From: a virus
Virus record (IMG/VR): IMGVR_UViG_3300017991_005533
Location: 1-22,867 of that record
Strand: one strand, 5' to 3'
Length of the DNA stretch: 22,867 nt
Positions 7,872 to 22,867 of this stretch are shown here, piece by piece (the stretch's first letter is position 1; each line of letters begins with the position of its first letter). The notes under the pieces are model-generated. The model was not told the origin of the DNA. It worked only from the letters and a program-made list of their open reading frames with translations, and did not search any database. Position numbers and translations under genes: made by a program.

Positions 7872-10169
7872 CTACTCCTGCCGACTACCTCCTCCTGGTA
7901 CGACTCTCTTGACCTCGTCGTAGTTTCGTTTCAGTATGGCTAGTCGGGTTAGGTGCTCCTCGACATCGATGTCACCTATGTGGCGAGCTCTGGCTTTTTC
8001 AAGGTAGGTTTTCGCCCGCTCAAGTGATACAGAAAGATCGAGATCTTTCCTCTTGTCAGGGTCAGTCTGTTCCCAGTCCTTCTCTGCTGCGGTGAGGAAG
8101 AATGTTCCGACTGTGTCGGAGAACCGCGCGTTCCAGACCGCCGTCACGGTTTCCAGTCTCCCAAGCTCGATTATATACTTCTGGATCTCTCCCGCCTCGA
8201 CACCAGTCATGGTGCCCACATACGCACAGTGGTTAACGGAGTATGCCCATGCCAACTGGTTCTCCCGCAGCGCCTTGTGGGCCTCCCCGCCCAGAAAGAA
8301 ACTCTTGCGCGCCCACTCAGCAATCTCTGATGCAACATCCGCTTCCGTGTCCGTTGTGATCATTCCTCCAAGATTGCTGAGTCTCCAGGCGTGATAAAGC
8401 ACGTACCCGACACCTAGTAGGACACCTCTTCTCTGCGCTCCGGAAAGTCCCTCATACAAACCCCAGATTCTATTTACAATTGCTCGCCTTTCATCATGGG
8501 TGGCCGCTCTGCCAATCCTCATTTCCGCTGCTGCTTGTATGACCAACAAGCTTGGAGGAACTTGCCCGCCCCCGGTCCCTGCCACGCATTCGTCCGCGAG
8601 ATCCACCAGCTGCTCATAGCAATGGATGCTCCAAAGCACGCCGCATACGAGCATGCAGCGCCTTGGGTTCGTTCGGGCTTCGTCCATCCACATCGCCGCA
8701 CGACTGGCATGAGCGGCGATATCGCCTTCGTCTTCTCGTCGCAGAAGCGAATCCAGAAGGTCTATTAGCTCTGCCTGCTCACTAGGACTCAGGGAATACC
8801 CCCAGCGCACGAGCCCGAGGTCTCGCATGACGTCATCTATCTTGCTTTCAAACCGTTGTCGAGTACGCAGGGTAGCTTCCACTACTTTTCTGAAGTCTCT
8901 TGTCCACCTACCCATTCTGTAAACTTTGGACTCCAGGCGCGATCTGACTTCTTGGATCTGCTCAGAGACGAGCACGCCAGTGTCGGATCTGGCGGCGAAA
9001 TCGAATACACGTGTCCATTGTCTTAGCACTTCGAATTTCTGAAGACTCTCGGGGATACGACCGCTCGTCCATACGTTGTCCATTGTTGCAAGCTGCTCGA
9101 AGTCCCCGATTAGAGCTCTGAGCTCACGCCCGCCCAGCTCAATCTGCTTCATAGCCTCATCGAAATCCGCCTCTGATGAACTTAAGGTGTCTTCGATCTT
9201 CTCGGACAGGGTCTTGAGATCCTCGAGTGTACCAAGGCTGCCACGCCCTCCAGTCATTGTCAGTTCCGCAAACCAGGCGCGCATGACAAAGTAGTCAGCA
9301 TCACGTATCACGACTTCGGAATCGATCGGAGCCGCCATTCCAGAAACGGGGGCGGTCTTGTATGACAATAGGCTCCGAAGCTCATCGTCACCATAAATCA
9401 ACTCCCCCAAGTTAGTCATTGTCTCGGTGTAGAAGCGCACTATTTCGCTGGAACTCTCTTCTTCCCTTTGCCTGATAAAGTAGACAAGGCATGTCAAGGC
9501 CGCAGCGTCTTGAAATACATTGATCGAGAGCCCTGGTCTCTTCGCGCCTAGAATCTTGTTTATCTTGCAAACAACATCTTCATTTGCTGGGAGAAGCTCG
9601 TACATCTCTGGCCCCATCTTATCAAACGATAGGATCTTGTCTCTCTCATAACGACGCAGTCTATGGCACCACGTCCCGTTTGCTTGTTCTATTCGTGCAA
9701 AGATCTCCCCTGGCTTCTTACGAAGGATTTCCACAAAGCGCTCTACACGATCTCTTTCATCACTTCCGTCGTCGGGGCCTTTCCCAGTCACAACATCATC
9801 AAGCTGCGACATAGCATCCCAGATGCCTTTTGACCGTAGGAACTCGCGGGCCTTGTCCAGGAACGCTTCCTGATCCCGTATCGTCGCGAATTGGGACTGA
9901 CGACCCAGCTCTTTGTTTAACTCGAATGCATGGGGCCTAAGCATGTGAATCTTCCCCAGGAATCCGCATGATAGGAGAGCTCTGACCACAAGTTGATGAG
10001 GTGAGCGGCCGTAATCCTGGGCTTCGAGACCCATGATGACACCCAGTACTACGTCTGCATCGTGATAGAATACAATGGGAATCCCGTTTAATTCAAGTTC
10101 GCGATCGTATAGAGACAGCCCAAGCGCTCTGGCGAATCGTGCAACCCGGTCCTGTGTCTTCTCAACCAA
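7872..10169 (-). CDS. 765-aa protein with PIN-like nuclease N-terminus and helical C-terminus
   Basis: The chosen start is TTG at 10169, six bases after an excellent AAGGAGA site (10176-10182). Residues 30-50 read as a strand plus acidic motif (IPIVFYHDADVVLGVIMG; D37, D39). E83 follows in MLRPHAFELNKEL. D221 sits in SINVFQDAAAL, and VRFYTET (244-250) sits where PIN domains usually have a strand ending T-x-D. This order (D, E, D, T/E) fits a PIN-like RNase of about 250 residues, though the last acidic position is Glu. Residues about 260-765 are almost all helical, with tetratricopeptide-like pairs near the end, suggesting sensing or oligomerisation. No known family name is assigned. Likely co-transcribed with the small exported protein 51 bases upstream. 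An RNA-cutting, infection-triggered effector is the best guess. The existence of the gene is near certain; the PIN call is moderate. Confidence 0.75.
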   Translation of the reverse strand: MVEKTQDRVARFARALGLSLYDRELELNGIPIVFYHDADVVLGVIMGLEAQDYGRSPHQLVVRALLSCGFLGKIHMLRPHAFELNKELGRQSQFATIRDQEAFLDKAREFLRSKGIWDAMSQLDDVVTGKGPDDGSDERDRVERFVEILRKKPGEIFARIEQANGTWCHRLRRYERDKILSFDKMGPEMYELLPANEDVVCKINKILGAKRPGLSINVFQDAAALTCLVYFIRQREEESSSEIVRFYTETMTNLGELIYGDDELRSLLSYKTAPVSGMAAPIDSEVVIRDADYFVMRAWFAELTMTGGRGSLGTLEDLKTLSEKIEDTLSSSEADFDEAMKQIELGGRELRALIGDFEQLATMDNVWTSGRIPESLQKFEVLRQWTRVFDFAARSDTGVLVSEQIQEVRSRLESKVYRMGRWTRDFRKVVEATLRTRQRFESKIDDVMRDLGLVRWGYSLSPSEQAELIDLLDSLLRREDEGDIAAHASRAAMWMDEARTNPRRCMLVCGVLWSIHCYEQLVDLADECVAGTGGGQVPPSLLVIQAAAEMRIGRAATHDERRAIVNRIWGLYEGLSGAQRRGVLLGVGYVLYHAWRLSNLGGMITTDTEADVASEIAEWARKSFFLGGEAHKALRENQLAWAYSVNHCAYVGTMTGVEAGEIQKYIIELGRLETVTAVWNARFSDTVGTFFLTAAEKDWEQTDPDKRKDLDLSVSLERAKTYLEKARARHIGDIDVEEHLTRLAILKRNYDEVKRVVPGGGSRQE

Positions 10170-13676: not shown

Positions 13677-15062
13677 TCAAATGGCTTTGAGATAGTCGCG
13701 GTCAAGCTCTCTATTCTGTGTCTTGATGCTCTTCCCCCGTCCCAGACCGTCAAGGTATCTGCACAAAATCAAGCGAGCCGTATCCTCTGCCTGGATATGG
13801 AGTACCTTGTGAGGCACGCCCTTAAGCTCTCGGGCAATGGCTGGATCAGAAAGGCCTTTGCCTTCATGCACGATAATGCTCCGGACTCCATAGAGAGCTT
13901 TCAGAAAGCCATAGGTCTCCTCGGGGTTGCGGAGTTGGCGCAGAAGCGCTGCGCCTCGCATGGCAAGTCTGTAGGCGAGTTCATTCCGTGTTTCCGTCAG
14001 GAGTACACTTTCGAGGGCTATTGTGATATCTATGAGTTTGTCTTCTCTGAGCTTCCTTGCATAGGATTGGTTGAAGCGTCGAAGGGCTAGGCTCATTTCG
14101 TGTCCCTTTTCGAGTGCCTGGGAGGAAGACAGCTGGCAAATCCTGTGATTTATAGCTTGAAGGTCGTCGGGAGTGCATCTGTAGGGCGGGGTATAAGTAA
14201 GCCACCCCTCCACACCGCAATCGTTTATTGTCCCAGTCCAGCCTCCAACTTGCCTTCCCCGACGATCTGTCGCACGGACAATTGTGCCATGGGTACCGAC
14301 CTTGCCAGCGTGTAAAAGGCGCATCGCAGTGATGGTCGTCCTGGCATCTCGTGCTGCCTGCTCCGAGACATTCATATGGGCACTCCATGTGGCAAAAAGG
14401 CGATATCGGGTCGAGATAAACTCCGAAACGCTGAAAAAACTGTATTCTCTGCCTACTGTGCTGAACGCCTCGGTCTTCTCCTCCGCTGAGAAAGGCTCCA
14501 GATCGAGGTTCGATTTCAGCGCTGTGTGAGCGCACTCCGACTCAAACCCCAGGAGTGGCACAGTGAACTTGGTCGTAATAGGTGTTATCCAGTCAGCCTT
14601 GCAACGCTCAAAGGCAGAGATGAACTTTTCGGGCTGGAACTCTAACGTTCGCTCCACTTCCAAGTACTCTGCGATGACAGCAGACAGCCGATTCAAAAGG
14701 AAGAGAAGTAGCTCATCATGGTTGTAACACTCTGCGGCGTCCCCGTCGGAGCCCTTGGAAGTGGGAACAGGGACAACTCCAGCTTGAATGAGAGCTTGGG
14801 CAGCTGACCTTGCCTCAGGGATCTGCAGGAGCAAACCGGGGGGCATATTGCGCTGGACGAAAACCGAGTACGACGATGACTTGCCATCTTCAAGGTCCCA
14901 CCGATCGCCATCCAGGAACGTAACTCGTTCCGTGGGGAAGGAGGGGACGGCACCCAGTGACGTCATATTTCTGAGGCGAGCTAGCAACGCTTCTCCGCAC
15001 GCAAGAAGTGAAGCCTGCAAAGGACGGCGACCCGCTCCCGAGTTGTCGTTTTCAGTAATCAT
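13677..15062 (-). CDS. HEPN-domain protein (ApeA-like C-terminal HEPN)
   Basis: 461 residues from the ATG at 15062; only a weak GGGG site lies upstream. The C-terminal third (about 315-440) is a HEPN domain: an ALESVLLTETRNELAYRLAMRGAALL helix pair followed by LYGVRSIIVHEGKG. R394 and H399 form the R-x4-H catalytic motif of HEPN ribonucleases. The arrangement resembles the Apea-like HEPN family, whose members act in abortive infection by cutting RNA. The N-terminal 300 residues have no family I recognise. They are mixed alpha/beta and may be the sensor. It lies inside phage DNA, opposite to the phage genes, which is typical of a defence cargo gene. The catalytic residues look intact, so it is probably active. 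Confidence 0.75.
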   Translation of the reverse strand: MITENDNSGAGRRPLQASLLACGEALLARLRNMTSLGAVPSFPTERVTFLDGDRWDLEDGKSSSYSVFVQRNMPPGLLLQIPEARSAAQALIQAGVVPVPTSKGSDGDAAECYNHDELLLFLLNRLSAVIAEYLEVERTLEFQPEKFISAFERCKADWITPITTKFTVPLLGFESECAHTALKSNLDLEPFSAEEKTEAFSTVGREYSFFSVSEFISTRYRLFATWSAHMNVSEQAARDARTTITAMRLLHAGKVGTHGTIVRATDRRGRQVGGWTGTINDCGVEGWLTYTPPYRCTPDDLQAINHRICQLSSSQALEKGHEMSLALRRFNQSYARKLREDKLIDITIALESVLLTETRNELAYRLAMRGAALLRQLRNPEETYGFLKALYGVRSIIVHEGKGLSDPAIARELKGVPHKVLHIQAEDTARLILCRYLDGLGRGKSIKTQNRELDRDYLKAI

Positions 15063-15577: not shown

Positions 15578-16582
15578 TCAGGAGAACGCGAGGCGCCAAG
15601 GAATGTAGAAATCACTTTGCGCTATTTGGCATTTTGAGGAGCGATACTCCCCGAAAGATGTCATTCCGTGCATCAGTGTCCCTGTACCTACAAGGGCCGA
15701 GAGCATTTTGACGTAGTCGGTTGGCGCGACAAGACACAGCCCGGCAGAGAGCATGCCGAGAGCTACCGTGCCGACTCTCGCAGACAACCTCCTTTTGGCT
15801 TCGAGTAGCCGGTGCTGAAGCTGCATCACACCGTCGTGTGTCTCACGCATCAGCTCAAGTAGCACATGATCGGCGTGGAGTGACTGATCGGCGGTATTGA
15901 GCATGTCCCGCAGGCGCCGCTGGAAGCGGTGGTACGCCTCGTGCTCTTCCATCCTAAGCGCAACGAGGGCATCAAGCGAGGAGCAACGGAGTTCGGGAGC
16001 GTAAAGGTCGACAGTACCTGCAGGCAAGAGACCTTCCTTTCTCCTGATTTCAGCTAGCTGTCTCTTTAGTTCGCTGTTGGATATCGCAGTCTGGAGTAGG
16101 CCTGGCGGGGAAGCAATGCCAGCATCCTTATCCTTGACGATTAGAGATAGCCTCGAAGGAATTGGCGCCACGAGAGATTCTTCTATGGCACGCCGGTAGC
16201 CGATCAAGAATATGTAGAAGGTCTCTGGGATTTTGACGCCAGTTCGAAGAGGGGTCTTGGTGTCCGGCCGATTCCTGTCCCAGAAGTTCTGCACGGCCTG
16301 TGATCTCCGGAAATCTCCGACGGGAAACACCGATACGGTGCCGAAGAGCACGGCTTTTCGGACCAGCACATCCAAGTGCTTCGGCGTGTGCGGTACGTCT
16401 ATGCACAGCCGAACGCCATCGATCGAGTTGAACCAATCCGCAAAGCTATCGGTCTGCTCCTGAAAACGGTCGTACACGGCTAGGTCGAGATCGGTGAAGC
16501 GGCGTGCCCTGCCGAGCTGCTTGGCACTTCGGATTCCGTGCTCGTCAAGCAAGCTGTATATGTCGGCGTACAGACAGTGCAC
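15578..16582 (-). CDS. Unrecognised 334-aa protein with hydrophobic C-terminal pair
   Basis: The GTG at 16582 is preceded in frame by a stop two codons upstream, so it is the earliest possible start; AGGGAA lies about 10 bases before it. No family recognised. Residues 1-180 are alpha/beta, with a strand-rich part (GVRLCIDVPHTP, then VRKAVLFGTVSVFPVGDF) suggesting a Rossmann-like or sensor fold. Residues about 215-280 are helical and heptad-rich (EEHEAYHRFQRRLRDML, LLELMRETHDGVMQLQHRLLEAKRRL). Two hydrophobic stretches follow near 285-320 (TVALGMLSAGLCLVA and YVKMLSALVGTGTLM), consistent with a membrane hairpin. Shape and place suggest a membrane-linked defence effector or sensor paired with the HEPN gene, but the 515-base gap weakens an operon claim. 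Confidence 0.65.
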   Translation of the reverse strand: MHCLYADIYSLLDEHGIRSAKQLGRARRFTDLDLAVYDRFQEQTDSFADWFNSIDGVRLCIDVPHTPKHLDVLVRKAVLFGTVSVFPVGDFRRSQAVQNFWDRNRPDTKTPLRTGVKIPETFYIFLIGYRRAIEESLVAPIPSRLSLIVKDKDAGIASPPGLLQTAISNSELKRQLAEIRRKEGLLPAGTVDLYAPELRCSSLDALVALRMEEHEAYHRFQRRLRDMLNTADQSLHADHVLLELMRETHDGVMQLQHRLLEAKRRLSARVGTVALGMLSAGLCLVAPTDYVKMLSALVGTGTLMHGMTSFGEYRSSKCQIAQSDFYIPWRLAFS

Positions 16583-18664: not shown

Positions 18665-19945
18665 ATGATGGAACTTATAGATCGAGTATTCATCAGCTAT
18701 AGGCGCACGGACGGTGACCTCGTGAATCCTACGATTCGAGCGCTGCGAGATCGAGGAATTCCGGTCTACATCGACGTCACCGATAAACCTGTCGAAGATC
18801 CTCATAGCCTCGAGCTTGGTCTCTCAGAAGGAGTTGCGACGAGTTCAAAGTTGGTGGCGTTTGTTTCCCCAGAATACGTGCGGTCAGCGTGGTGTCGAGG
18901 CGAACTCAGGGAGTTCATTTTTCTCCATGGCGCGAAGGTAGACAATCCTGAACAGCAGACTGCATACGGGCGAAATCCAAGCTACGAGTTCTACGACCGA
19001 CGCATCCCACTGCCACGGATCCCAGCGCTCTTGGTGTTGCTGGACAGCAGCGTAGCGCTCGAGGATGTAGCGAAGGCAGTATCGCCGGAAGACAGAATGG
19101 CGGACTTCTGCTATCGGGTGGAGGCGTATCGCGCCGATACGGAACTTTCTCGGCGGATGTTTTGCCTTGACTACGTTCGTCGACGGGGAATCGATGCATC
19201 ACACTATGTGCAGCACCTTCAAGCGTATGATGGCTCTGCGGCAGGACCCGAAGCGATAGCCTCAACAGTGGCGCGATGGTCTGCGACTGCGGCTCCTCGC
19301 TCTACAGAGGAACCGGACGAATCGGTGAAGCCGGAAGGTGTTACCTCGTTGTGGGCGCGAATGTGTTCAGAATACGGTCCTGGCGAGTTCGCCAGAACTG
19401 CTGATCCTGTTGCCGTAGTTGATGGCGTCAATCCAGGACCATTGGTCTCGGACGATCTCCGTGCGCGGATCCGCAAATACTCAGACGAACTGCTGATCTC
19501 GCTTTTCGCGGATATTGTTGCTGGCCAACGATCGGCTACATACTTCGACAGAGCGGCCGCAGAAGGCTTTAGCTTCCTCCCTTCCTACTTCCATTTACTG
19601 CCCAAAATCCCACAGGGCCCTCATGCGCTCCGACGGTCGCTTCAACTCGTCCAAGGGATCATGAGTCGAGGGCGACTACGCCCACAACTCATGCAGGGTC
19701 ATCCGCTTAGCCTACTTGTGAAGTTGGCTCGGCAGAGAGAGCTACTCAGGCCGCTCCAGTACTCCTATTATGCGGCCCTGGAACGTAGCGGACACAATTC
19801 GTCCGTGGATACTGCTGCGGTGGCTGGACTGTTTGTCAATATCGATGTCTGCTTTGAAGTGATACACAATATAGAGACTTTGCGTGAACTCGTTGTCGAA
19901 CCACTGAGCAAACTCAGAGACATCCGGTCCTTGTTCCCATGGTAG
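18665..19945 (+). CDS. TIR-domain protein with unknown C-terminal region
   Basis: 426 residues from the first of two tandem ATGs at 18665. Residues 6-150 form a TIR domain: RVFISYRRTDGDLV (box 1), RGIPVYIDVTD (strand B), a DPHSLELGLSEGVATSS helix, LVAFVSPEYVRSAWCRGEL and a basic/acidic tail with PRIPALLVLLD. E80 in WCRGE sits at the usual catalytic glutamate of NAD-cleaving TIRs. Residues about 160-426 are helical, with no family I recognise and no NTPase motif; they may sense phage. In bacteria such proteins kill or arrest infected cells by depleting or converting NAD. Its base composition and missing ribosome site differ from the adjacent phage genes, and hairpin copies flank it, so it looks inserted. 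Confidence 0.8.
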   Translation: MMELIDRVFISYRRTDGDLVNPTIRALRDRGIPVYIDVTDKPVEDPHSLELGLSEGVATSSKLVAFVSPEYVRSAWCRGELREFIFLHGAKVDNPEQQTAYGRNPSYEFYDRRIPLPRIPALLVLLDSSVALEDVAKAVSPEDRMADFCYRVEAYRADTELSRRMFCLDYVRRRGIDASHYVQHLQAYDGSAAGPEAIASTVARWSATAAPRSTEEPDESVKPEGVTSLWARMCSEYGPGEFARTADPVAVVDGVNPGPLVSDDLRARIRKYSDELLISLFADIVAGQRSATYFDRAAAEGFSFLPSYFHLLPKIPQGPHALRRSLQLVQGIMSRGRLRPQLMQGHPLSLLVKLARQRELLRPLQYSYYAALERSGHNSSVDTAAVAGLFVNIDVCFEVIHNIETLRELVVEPLSKLRDIRSLFPW

Positions 19946-20200: not shown

Positions 20201-20524
20201 TCAAGGTATATCACCCGCACGCGTGTTCTTGGTCCGCCGTCGCCACGCCCGTGCCCGACACGCGTCGGAGCAGTAGACCCTCTCCCGTCGCGCCTTCGGA
20301 TTCCGCTCAAGAGGAAGATCCGCCCCGCAGACAAGGCAGACCCTGAACGCACAAAGGCGGCGCCGGTGAGCGTTTGAGGTCCCAATAGGAGCTGTGCCAT
20401 GGGTCTCAGGCCGATCGTGGCTTGGTGAGCGTTCGCGGGTATCGATATGCCGGGTGAGCCCGGCGGATTCTGGATCATATGGCTGAGGACATTTCACTCT
20501 TTCACCCCACCCTAATATACGCAC
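20201..20524 (-). CDS. Small zinc-finger protein next to the primase
   Basis: Up to 107 residues, using a GTG at 20524. An alternative GTG at 20497 has a better GGGGTGA site upstream, and an even later start is possible. The C-terminal third is clear: CLVCG, about 18 residues, then YCSDACRARAWRRR. This is a C-x2-C...C-x3-C zinc-binding site followed by a basic tail, common in small phage and plasmid proteins that may bind nucleic acid. It follows the primase on the same strand, with the AT-rich repeat region between them. A role in replication or in regulating it is inferred from position alone. Confidence 0.6.
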   Translation of the reverse strand: MRILGWGERVKCPQPYDPESAGLTRHIDTRERSPSHDRPETHGTAPIGTSNAHRRRLCAFRVCLVCGADLPLERNPKARRERVYCSDACRARAWRRRTKNTRAGDIP

Positions 20525-20569
20525 GCGAGAGAAAGGACATATCTGATGAGAGAGGGGGGTATAGGTGAA

Positions 20570-20622
20570 AGGTAGAAAGATATAGATAGATATATATATT
20601 ATATATACTTATATTCATATAT
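20570..20622. other. AT-rich tract, possible DNA unwinding element
   Basis: About 50 bases almost entirely A and T (repeated TATA, ATAT and AGATAG motifs) inside GC-rich DNA. It lies immediately beside the phased TTCAC repeats and between the primase and zinc-finger genes. This is the expected layout of an unwinding element at a replication origin. It could also simply be a promoter region for the zinc-finger gene. Confidence 0.55.
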
Positions 20623-20624
20623 CC

Positions 20625-20677
20625 TTCACGATACTTCACTGTGTTTCACCTCATGAAGATGTTTCACTATACTTCAC
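20625..20677. repeat. Phased TTCAC repeats (iteron-like)
   Basis: TTCAC occurs at 20625, 20635 and 20645 (exact 10-base period), then at 20663 and 20673 (again 10 bases). Further copies lie at 20493, 20501 and 20702, and one inverted copy (GTGAA) at 20565. The longer unit on the minus strand is GTGAAGTAT-x-GTGAA, seen twice. One-turn spacing suggests binding of a protein to one DNA face, as for origin iterons or an operator. Confidence 0.65.
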
Positions 20678-20692
20678 CCCTTGGCTCGGCCG

Positions 20693-22867
20693 TTAGGATC
20701 CTTCACTCTCGCCTGGTTCTTCTCCCGATTCTTGCTCCCGCGTGGTTCCGACAAGCTGGTAGAACCGACCAGGCTTGGTAGCGGTCGGCTGGTTCCGGAT
20801 CACGATGTCCCCGCGCTGTTCGAGCGTGTTCACAATGAGCATGAAGTTCTTCGTGTCCATCTTCATGCGCTTGAGTAGAACGCTGTGCGGTAGCTCCAGT
20901 CCCGGGGCGCCCCGCAGCTTCTCCAAGAACTTCAGGCACTCAGCATGGAAGGGGTTCGCAGCGACATGAGCTTGCGTCATGAAGAGCATCCGCCTGGCCT
21001 GGTGCATGACAAACCGCCTGGCCCACCGCGCCGCCTTCTTTCCGATCTCAGGATGAGCGCGGTTCTCGCTCACAGCGTAGATCAGTGCGAGCTTTCGCGC
21101 GTGCTCTGTCACACGACCCCATACGGCCGTGCCGACTGTGTCGCCCGAGGCCTCCGCCTTCGCGTACTCTGCCTCCGCCTCAAGTCGGTTCTCGATCAAG
21201 ATGTCGGCCGCCTCGTGGGTGATGGGGGCAACCCGCGGCACGGGGTGCCAGTTCTCGAGGTTACCCGTGCCAGAACGAAAGTCCGCCCACCACTTTGCTG
21301 TCTCTAGCACACGCCGAGGTGGCGGCTCGAGCGTCGGCTCCTGACCCGCTGACCTTTTGCCTGATTCCAGGATGATCATGCGAGCGAAGAAGCCGTTGGT
21401 GAGCATCCGCTCCGAGAGCGCCTCGTAATAGTGGTTCGGGATTGCCGTGCCGAAGACCACGAGACAAGGCTGGTCGATGACCCCCGCAGACTCCTTGCCT
21501 GCCTTACGTCGCATCGGAAAGACCGAGTTCGCTGCCGAGTACATCGTGAGAAGTGTTCCCATGATGTTCTCGTATCTGGCATCCCTCGCCTTGTTGATCG
21601 ACTGAAGCATCCCGTCGATCTCGTCGGTTTGGAACAACATGCACGGCTCGCAGAATAGGGCGTCCTGAACACCCTCGCCGGATGCGAACCGGCCCGCGAC
21701 ATGGTTCGACAGCCCGATCGCGTGCAGAATCTCGATGTTGACCTTGCGCGGATGCTCCTTGCCCGCGGAGGAGTGCGCAAGACCAAGGAGATAGAGGTTC
21801 GTCCGGTTGTTACCGGGGTCGCGCACCTTGCGGCCCGCCAGAACCGCTTGAAGCGCAAGCGCTCCCGCGAAGGCCATTACCACGTTCGGATAGGGCGCAG
21901 TCGAAAGGCAGTGGTCCATCACTTCAGAGACGAAGCCCGGCACACGCAGGAGCTCGTCCGGCAAAGGGCCGGGATTGAAGATATCCGGCGCGCTGTCGTC
22001 GCTGGGGGCGACTTGAACGGCGTCCTGCGCCCAGTGATTCTCCGCCACGGCCACCGCCACCTGGTCGGGTTCATAGCGCGAGATGCTCGCCGCAATCCGC
22101 TCGACCTCACGAGGCGAAAGCGGCGGCCGGCATCTATCCTGGTTCGCACGCTCCAATGCAGCCTGGATCTCCTCGCGGCTCATTCCCACCCTACGCACCG
22201 TCCCCGCCAGCCGCGCCAAGGTCGCGTTGCGCTGGCCAGTCGGGATCACGTTGGAATCAAGGGGCGGATTTTCATCCCTGGGTGCGGCCCACGTATCTGG
22301 CGGAGCGGCCGCGTCCCCATTGCGCCAGGAGGAGTCTCCCGCGAACAGATCTCCCAATCCGTCCAACAGTGTCACTAGCCATTTGGGAGGTTCGGGTAGG
22401 TCGCCCGGTGCGATTTCCAATTCTGACTTCTCCGCCCACCGGTATGATTTCCCCTCAACAATGGAGGGTGGCACTACGATGTAGCCGCCGTTGGCCCGGG
22501 TATCGACCTTCGGCGCGATCTTCCCCGCCGTGTTACTCCAGCTGGTCCCCGTCGGTTGGCGGAATATGTAGTGCCGCCCGCCACGGGGCGTAAGAGATAC
22601 TACACAATGCGAAAGCTCCTGCGCCTTGACCGGATCCTTCGGCCAGGGATTCTCCGCGCCGTCGACGTCGATGACGAGAAGCCCAGCGGTCGGCATGGCG
22701 ACGTTCGCGTTGGGGTTCTTCTTCCACCACGCCTCAATCTGAGCTGCATCGGTGGTCGCATCTTGAAAGCCGTGGGGCGTGATCGGCGTCTTACCACCGG
22801 GAGCGCAAGGGAACACTGGATAACCCAGCGCGGCGTAGCGAAGCGCGGCAGCATGAAGCTTGGACAA
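20693..22867 (-). CDS. Phage primase-polymerase (bifunctional prim-pol + DUF3987-like), possibly 5'-incomplete
   Basis: At least 724 residues; the TTG forming the last three window bases may or may not be the true start. Residues 1-175 are a prim-pol domain: ALGYPVFPCAPGGKTP, VIDVDG (D67, D69 metal ligands), TPRGGRHYIF (H99) and VDTRANGGYIVVPPS. Residues about 215-275 form a PriCT-like linker (TGQRNATLARLAG, then LSPREVERIAASISRYEP). Residues about 300-560 match DUF3987-type replication proteins, with a Walker-A-like SSAGKEHPRK and Walker-B-like FQTDEIDGML. The P-loop is atypical, so ATPase activity is uncertain. The end is a winged-helix-like segment. It probably primes replication of the phage or element at the nearby repeats. 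Confidence 0.85.
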   Translation of the reverse strand: MSKLHAAALRYAALGYPVFPCAPGGKTPITPHGFQDATTDAAQIEAWWKKNPNANVAMPTAGLLVIDVDGAENPWPKDPVKAQELSHCVVSLTPRGGRHYIFRQPTGTSWSNTAGKIAPKVDTRANGGYIVVPPSIVEGKSYRWAEKSELEIAPGDLPEPPKWLVTLLDGLGDLFAGDSSWRNGDAAAPPDTWAAPRDENPPLDSNVIPTGQRNATLARLAGTVRRVGMSREEIQAALERANQDRCRPPLSPREVERIAASISRYEPDQVAVAVAENHWAQDAVQVAPSDDSAPDIFNPGPLPDELLRVPGFVSEVMDHCLSTAPYPNVVMAFAGALALQAVLAGRKVRDPGNNRTNLYLLGLAHSSAGKEHPRKVNIEILHAIGLSNHVAGRFASGEGVQDALFCEPCMLFQTDEIDGMLQSINKARDARYENIMGTLLTMYSAANSVFPMRRKAGKESAGVIDQPCLVVFGTAIPNHYYEALSERMLTNGFFARMIILESGKRSAGQEPTLEPPPRRVLETAKWWADFRSGTGNLENWHPVPRVAPITHEAADILIENRLEAEAEYAKAEASGDTVGTAVWGRVTEHARKLALIYAVSENRAHPEIGKKAARWARRFVMHQARRMLFMTQAHVAANPFHAECLKFLEKLRGAPGLELPHSVLLKRMKMDTKNFMLIVNTLEQRGDIVIRNQPTATKPGRFYQLVGTTREQESGEEPGESEGS

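Follow-up and report, generated by a model that had tools for sequence, protein, structure and literature searches.

Between the prim-pol gene and a small zinc-finger-like gene of this virus lies an array of short repeats, which raises the question of what the array does and which protein reads it. The sequence analyzed, here called the window, is a fragmentary IMG/VR virus contig of 22,867 bases. An initial annotation had described an origin-like region in it, with five TTCAC units at 10-base steps interrupted by one 18-base gap, and had named the zinc-finger protein and the primase as candidate binders. The five units were confirmed (at 20625, 20635, 20645, 20663 and 20673; steps of 10, 10, 18 and 10), and the array proved to be larger, with nine TTCAC/GTGAA units within 20488-20706, eight in one orientation and one inverted. 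The extra same-strand TTCAC units are at 20702, 20501 and 20493 and the inverted unit is at 20565. Eight TTCAC per 230 bases was reached in 0 of 20,000 dinucleotide shuffles (shuffle maximum 3).

Starting from the prim-pol side, the iterons are GTGAAGGATC (20697-20706), GTGAAGTATA (20668-20677), GTGAAACATC (20658-20667), GTGAAACACA (20640-20649), GTGAAGTATC (20630-20639) and GTGAAGGATA (20620-20629), all on the − strand, followed by the inverted GTGAAAGGTA (20565-20574, + strand) and by GTGAAAGAGT (20496-20505) and GTGAAATGTC (20488-20497), again on the − strand. Their second halves are less uniform than those of the repeats in related loci. The array was correctly placed between the prim-pol and zinc-finger genes, with the first iteron lying inside the final codons of prim-pol.

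The prim-pol initiator gene (20693-22867, − strand), which may extend beyond the end of the record, was assigned from Pfam matches to Prim-Pol (1e-41) and PriCT_1 (7e-18), from PHROG primases and from alignments. Its product combines the prim-pol domain, PriCT_1, a putative P-loop helicase (region 296-640) and a C-terminal putative winged helix (residues ~640-706). The helicase region has no helicase match in Pfam and shows only P-loop-like and FQTDEID motifs, and the winged-helix assignment is putative, based on weak profile matches and on the pattern of the sequence. The putative DNA-reading domain (residues ~663-706, codons 20750-20881, − strand), supported by the top mutual-information columns described below, consists of the helix LLKRMKMDTKNF followed by the wing TATKPGRFYQL, and the first-ranked column, K698, is encoded at 20774-20776 (− strand). 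On the other side of the array, the small CxxC...CxxxC zinc-finger-like protein (20201-20524, − strand), which falls outside the mechanism proposed below, has weak PHROG matches and weakly resembles part of an HNH endonuclease family (PHROG 1271, 2.5e-4). Its start codon is uncertain; if the GTG start is correct, its first codons overlap the array.

Elsewhere in the window, a TIR-domain protein (18665-19945, + strand; Pfam TIR_2 3e-12; PADLOC SAVED_TIR/ThsB-like) is a possible defence gene among phage genes. Three large ORFs of lower G+C (7872-10169, 13677-15062 and 15578-16582, all on the − strand) interrupt the structural genes and had no Pfam or PADLOC match.

Within the array, an A/T-rich tract (20575-20622) lies beside the repeats, as the initial annotation had noted, although its description as almost pure A/T was slightly generous (87.5%). 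The tract is conserved in the alignment with relatives, continues into a conserved − strand pyrimidine stretch and is a probable unwinding element. It is followed by a potential hairpin (20496-20574), identified by the architecture seen in relatives, in which the inverted iteron, a C-run, an alternating tract, a G-run and a direct iteron succeed one another, so that the inverted iteron at 20565-20574 and the direct iteron at 20496-20505 form the two arms. In the window itself this hairpin is weak (z −0.8 to −1.3, not clearly above shuffles), and an Rfam scan of the window gave no match. Cumulative GC skew, suggested initially as a check, showed no turn at the array and is uninformative because the record is a fragment.

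Searches based on the prim-pol protein and on its alignment retrieved ~260 loci, drawn from both viral contigs and bacterial genomes, with some contigs represented repeatedly; the bacterial-genome loci are mainly from Planctomycetota. Most of ~150 related phages and prophages, which come largely from Planctomycetota, carry the array immediately behind their homologue of the prim-pol gene. When the 8-mer with the strongest over-representation after the prim-pol stop was sought blindly, with other stretches of the same loci as controls, the median best-repeat score was 9.3 versus 4.0 in the controls, and 105 of 147 non-redundant loci exceeded the control 99th percentile. Close relatives keeping both flanking genes (L002, L003 and L107), in which the initial annotation had proposed looking for the repeats, retain them, and in the close-relative alignment 40 of 45 columns were invariant in the repeat core versus 104 of 169 in the spacer (p = 3e-4). 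Such repeats were absent at the corresponding place in three cultured phages of Vibrio, Serratia and Pseudoalteromonas with distant prim-pols (~25% identity).

Comparison of the relatives revealed a constant layout of direct iterons, A/T tract, CTCTCT-type pyrimidines, inverted iteron, C-run, CGCGTGTG-like alternating tract, G-run and direct iteron. The iteron-armed C-run/G-run hairpin pattern was present in 81 of 107 loci versus 1 of 107 shuffles, with a median z of −3.8 and a length of ~80 nt. Three loci (L061, L068 and L057) have entirely different iterons (CAATAGGT, CAAGAAGT and GGCCAAAAGG), yet in these too the C-run and G-run are bordered by an inverted and a direct copy. The spacing was more variable: the placement on one face proposed initially holds in the window but is only a tendency across relatives, where 10 bases was the commonest spacing (17% of gaps of at most 40 bases) and spacings of 7, 8, 11, 13, 18 and 21 were also common.

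Some of these loci carry other elements after prim-pol. A conserved element of ~80 nt, with the pattern TAGGTACTTCCC(N25-35)CGCGGGAACAGCCGC(N15)AGTTTGTTTTG.TGTCCG, occurs 130-575 nt after the prim-pol stop in 36 related loci (e.g. L018, L068 and L131) and often precedes a ParB/methylase-like gene; it is absent from the window, gave no Rfam hit among the loci scanned and is possibly a cos site or an RNA motif. Type II hammerhead ribozymes scoring above the Rfam gathering score lie a few kb downstream of prim-pol in two loci (L068, 10905-10968, and L021, 10985-11046, both on the − strand).

Repeat letters vary by lineage and track the C-terminal domain of prim-pol. In most loci the helix follows LLKRMK.DAK.F and the iterons start with GTGAA, and the letters after GTGAA vary with the wing. 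When mutual information was computed between every protein column (417 aligned) and the iteron positions, the best predictor of the iteron second half was residue 698 in the putative wing (K in the window), and the top eight columns (in order 698, 695, 677, 700, 696, 676, 699 and 657) all fell in the C-terminal domain. Residue 698 also ranked first, and the top eight columns again fell in this domain, when the test was restricted to DNA beginning at the stop codon, ruling out that the covariation is an artefact of repeats overlapping the 3′ end of the gene. After GTGAA, R at 698 was associated with RGAAG, W with WCWTG ([AT]C[AT]TG), T, S, A or G with an ACGT-like second half (CGTG or CGGT), P with AAGT and K, the class of the window, with RGAT.

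With the repeat class defined as the majority bases after GTGAA, which is noisy for weak arrays, residue class matched repeat class in 102 of 111 loci (permutations: mean 43, maximum 56), a count that includes the training loci on which the three-base class boundaries were set; four of the nine disagreeing loci came from one clade. Free of training data, the agreement was 23 of 25, with the residue rule fixed before new loci were fetched and scored on loci less than 92% identical to the training loci; in both misses the predicted unit occurs alongside others. Among locus pairs with at least 75% helicase-core identity, none of the 1,052 differing in 698 class shared a repeat class, versus ~99% of those with equal 698 class. 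On a tree built without the C-terminal domain, residue 698 changed at least 25 times. For R versus the rest, the prediction was borne out by six independent pairs on branches with strong support (on average 5.6 of 6 across random pairings), and for W and the small residues no independent pair was contrary, the pairs being too few for significance.

Loci with other helices showed a related pattern. Those with the helix FWQINRKHPWSEREHEEV have CAAnnnGT units, and at the same wing position R occurred with A (AA) in 11 of 12 loci and T, S or A with G ([AG]G) in 13 of 13. Loci with the helix ..[LI]MR.M have GTGAC or CTGAC in place of GTGAA and keep GGATT with a TK wing. These patterns suggest that the helix specifies the first half of each iteron and the wing the second, with the contacts between each element and its bases predicted from covariation. 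Two arrays after prim-pol genes (L200 and L210) contain mixed iteron types and may be origins caught in the middle of a switch of specificity. It is likely that these phages use a near-digital protein-to-DNA code, in which the helix would set the first half and a single wing residue the second, and that close relatives among the prophages have switched origin specificity many times, yielding mutually orthogonal replicons.

The origin-like region and the primase as its binder, as first proposed, are strongly supported by position, architecture and, as indirect evidence of binding, covariation in more than 100 loci. We conclude that 20488-20706 is very probably a phage replication origin recognized, through its iterons, by the adjacent prim-pol itself, a reading built on comparative sequence analysis. 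The prim-pol/helicase encoded immediately upstream would bind the 10-bp iterons via its C-terminal winged-helix domain, with the recognition helix reading GTGAA and the wing, mainly residue 698, reading the second half (RGAT in the window). Several bound monomers would then assemble the helicase and open the A/T-rich tract, perhaps helped when the iteron-armed hairpin extrudes, and the prim-pol domain would synthesize the first primers.

The repeats might instead be operators at which a transcription regulator, either a repressor or the zinc-finger protein, controls the genes after prim-pol, as the array precedes the next same-strand gene and the A/T tract contains a few sigma-70-like matches, though on the + strand. 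Yet the repeats remain while the downstream genes differ among loci, a zinc-finger gene being found in 9 and a ParB/methylase-like gene in 30 of 84 repeat-bearing loci, and the repeat letters track one prim-pol residue more closely than any other column, which makes regulation of this kind highly improbable. Since a similar gene follows the array in only 9 of these 84 loci, the zinc-finger protein, the other binder first suggested, cannot be the general one. Shared ancestry of neighboring DNA is a further potential source of the covariation, as the repeats adjoin the C-terminal codons and could recombine jointly with them. Such hitch-hiking is scarcely credible given that equally linked columns of the same protein predict far less, with columns from 657 to 700 ranking at the top, that residue 698 has changed so often and that the rule recurs with different letters in an independent helix family.

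Binding by prim-pol could also serve a control, incompatibility or accessory function, with replication beginning elsewhere. Phage P4 provides the precedent, having a cis-required crr with the repeats of its ori right after its alpha gene and initiating at that separate ori. No other TTCAC/GTGAA cluster was found in the 22.9-kb record, although, the record being a fragment, a second site is possible, and the locus is equipped with the A/T tract and hairpin required of a start site; we consider an accessory role unlikely.

Recognition of the origin by prim-pol is also the simplest account in light of the parallels with P4 alpha, the Rep and Cch2 proteins of SaPIs and SCCmec, and pRN1. P4 alpha, like the window protein, fuses primase, helicase and a C-terminal DNA-binding domain, and its binding to the GGTGAACA repeats is summarized in PMC4234260. 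According to the deposited annotation, from which repeat number and type were taken, these type I repeats of ori and crr share with the window a GGTGAA start, ~10-base steps and one inverted copy, whereas their last letters differ. P4 also has an A/T-rich stretch, there between two direct clusters, and its crr directly follows the alpha gene, as the array follows prim-pol. In contrast, its ori lies ~2 kb beyond the opposite end of alpha, and its primase is Toprim/DnaG-like rather than a prim-pol. No homology between the origin-binding domains was detected (hhalign probability 0.1), although the test was weak, one side being represented by a single sequence.

The iterons read by SaPI Rep and SCCmec Cch2 directly follow the genes of these proteins (PMC7581432), and both systems resemble the arrangement proposed here in having a self-loading initiator helicase and an ori directly after the helicase gene. 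The likeness is one of arrangement rather than of helicase family; their primase is often a separate protein, unlike the fused window protein, and PMC7581432 does not report a per-residue code. The prim-pol covariation is consistent with a SaPI-like C-terminal domain setting iteron specificity.

The enzymatic domain order of the window protein is shared by pRN1 ORF904 (prim-pol, helicase of type SF3 and winged helix) and the BIP-1/BPP-1 phages, in which the origin directly follows the gene, as the array does here; the prim-pol profile weakly matches the ORF904 prim-pol structure (E 0.002). pRN1 replicates from a ~100-nt stem-loop that immediately follows the prim-pol/helicase gene (PMC4234260), compared with the ~80-nt hairpin of the relatives, which is not significant in the window. 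In pRN1 and BIP-1, no iterons were found (PMC4234260). PolpTN2 and PrimPol-PV1 likewise carry a C-terminal winged helix (putative in the window), suggested to read the origin by its recognition helix and wing (PMC5862659); this was speculation from structure, of which repeats and covariation are not part. We found no published residue-to-repeat code of this kind in the open-access literature.

For initiators that combine prim-pol, helicase and winged helix, the bound motif was previously "not yet identified" (pRN1, PMC4234260) or guessed (PMC5862659). Sequence alone now reveals this motif, where it lies and which part of the protein determines it in more than 100 phages and prophages, including array-bearing prophages of cultured planctomycetes (CP050848, CP036272, CP036432 and CP087563). 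Origin recognition and origin incompatibility thereby become testable, the origins of uncultured phages can be annotated, and a naturally occurring collection of likely orthogonal initiator-origin pairs becomes available.
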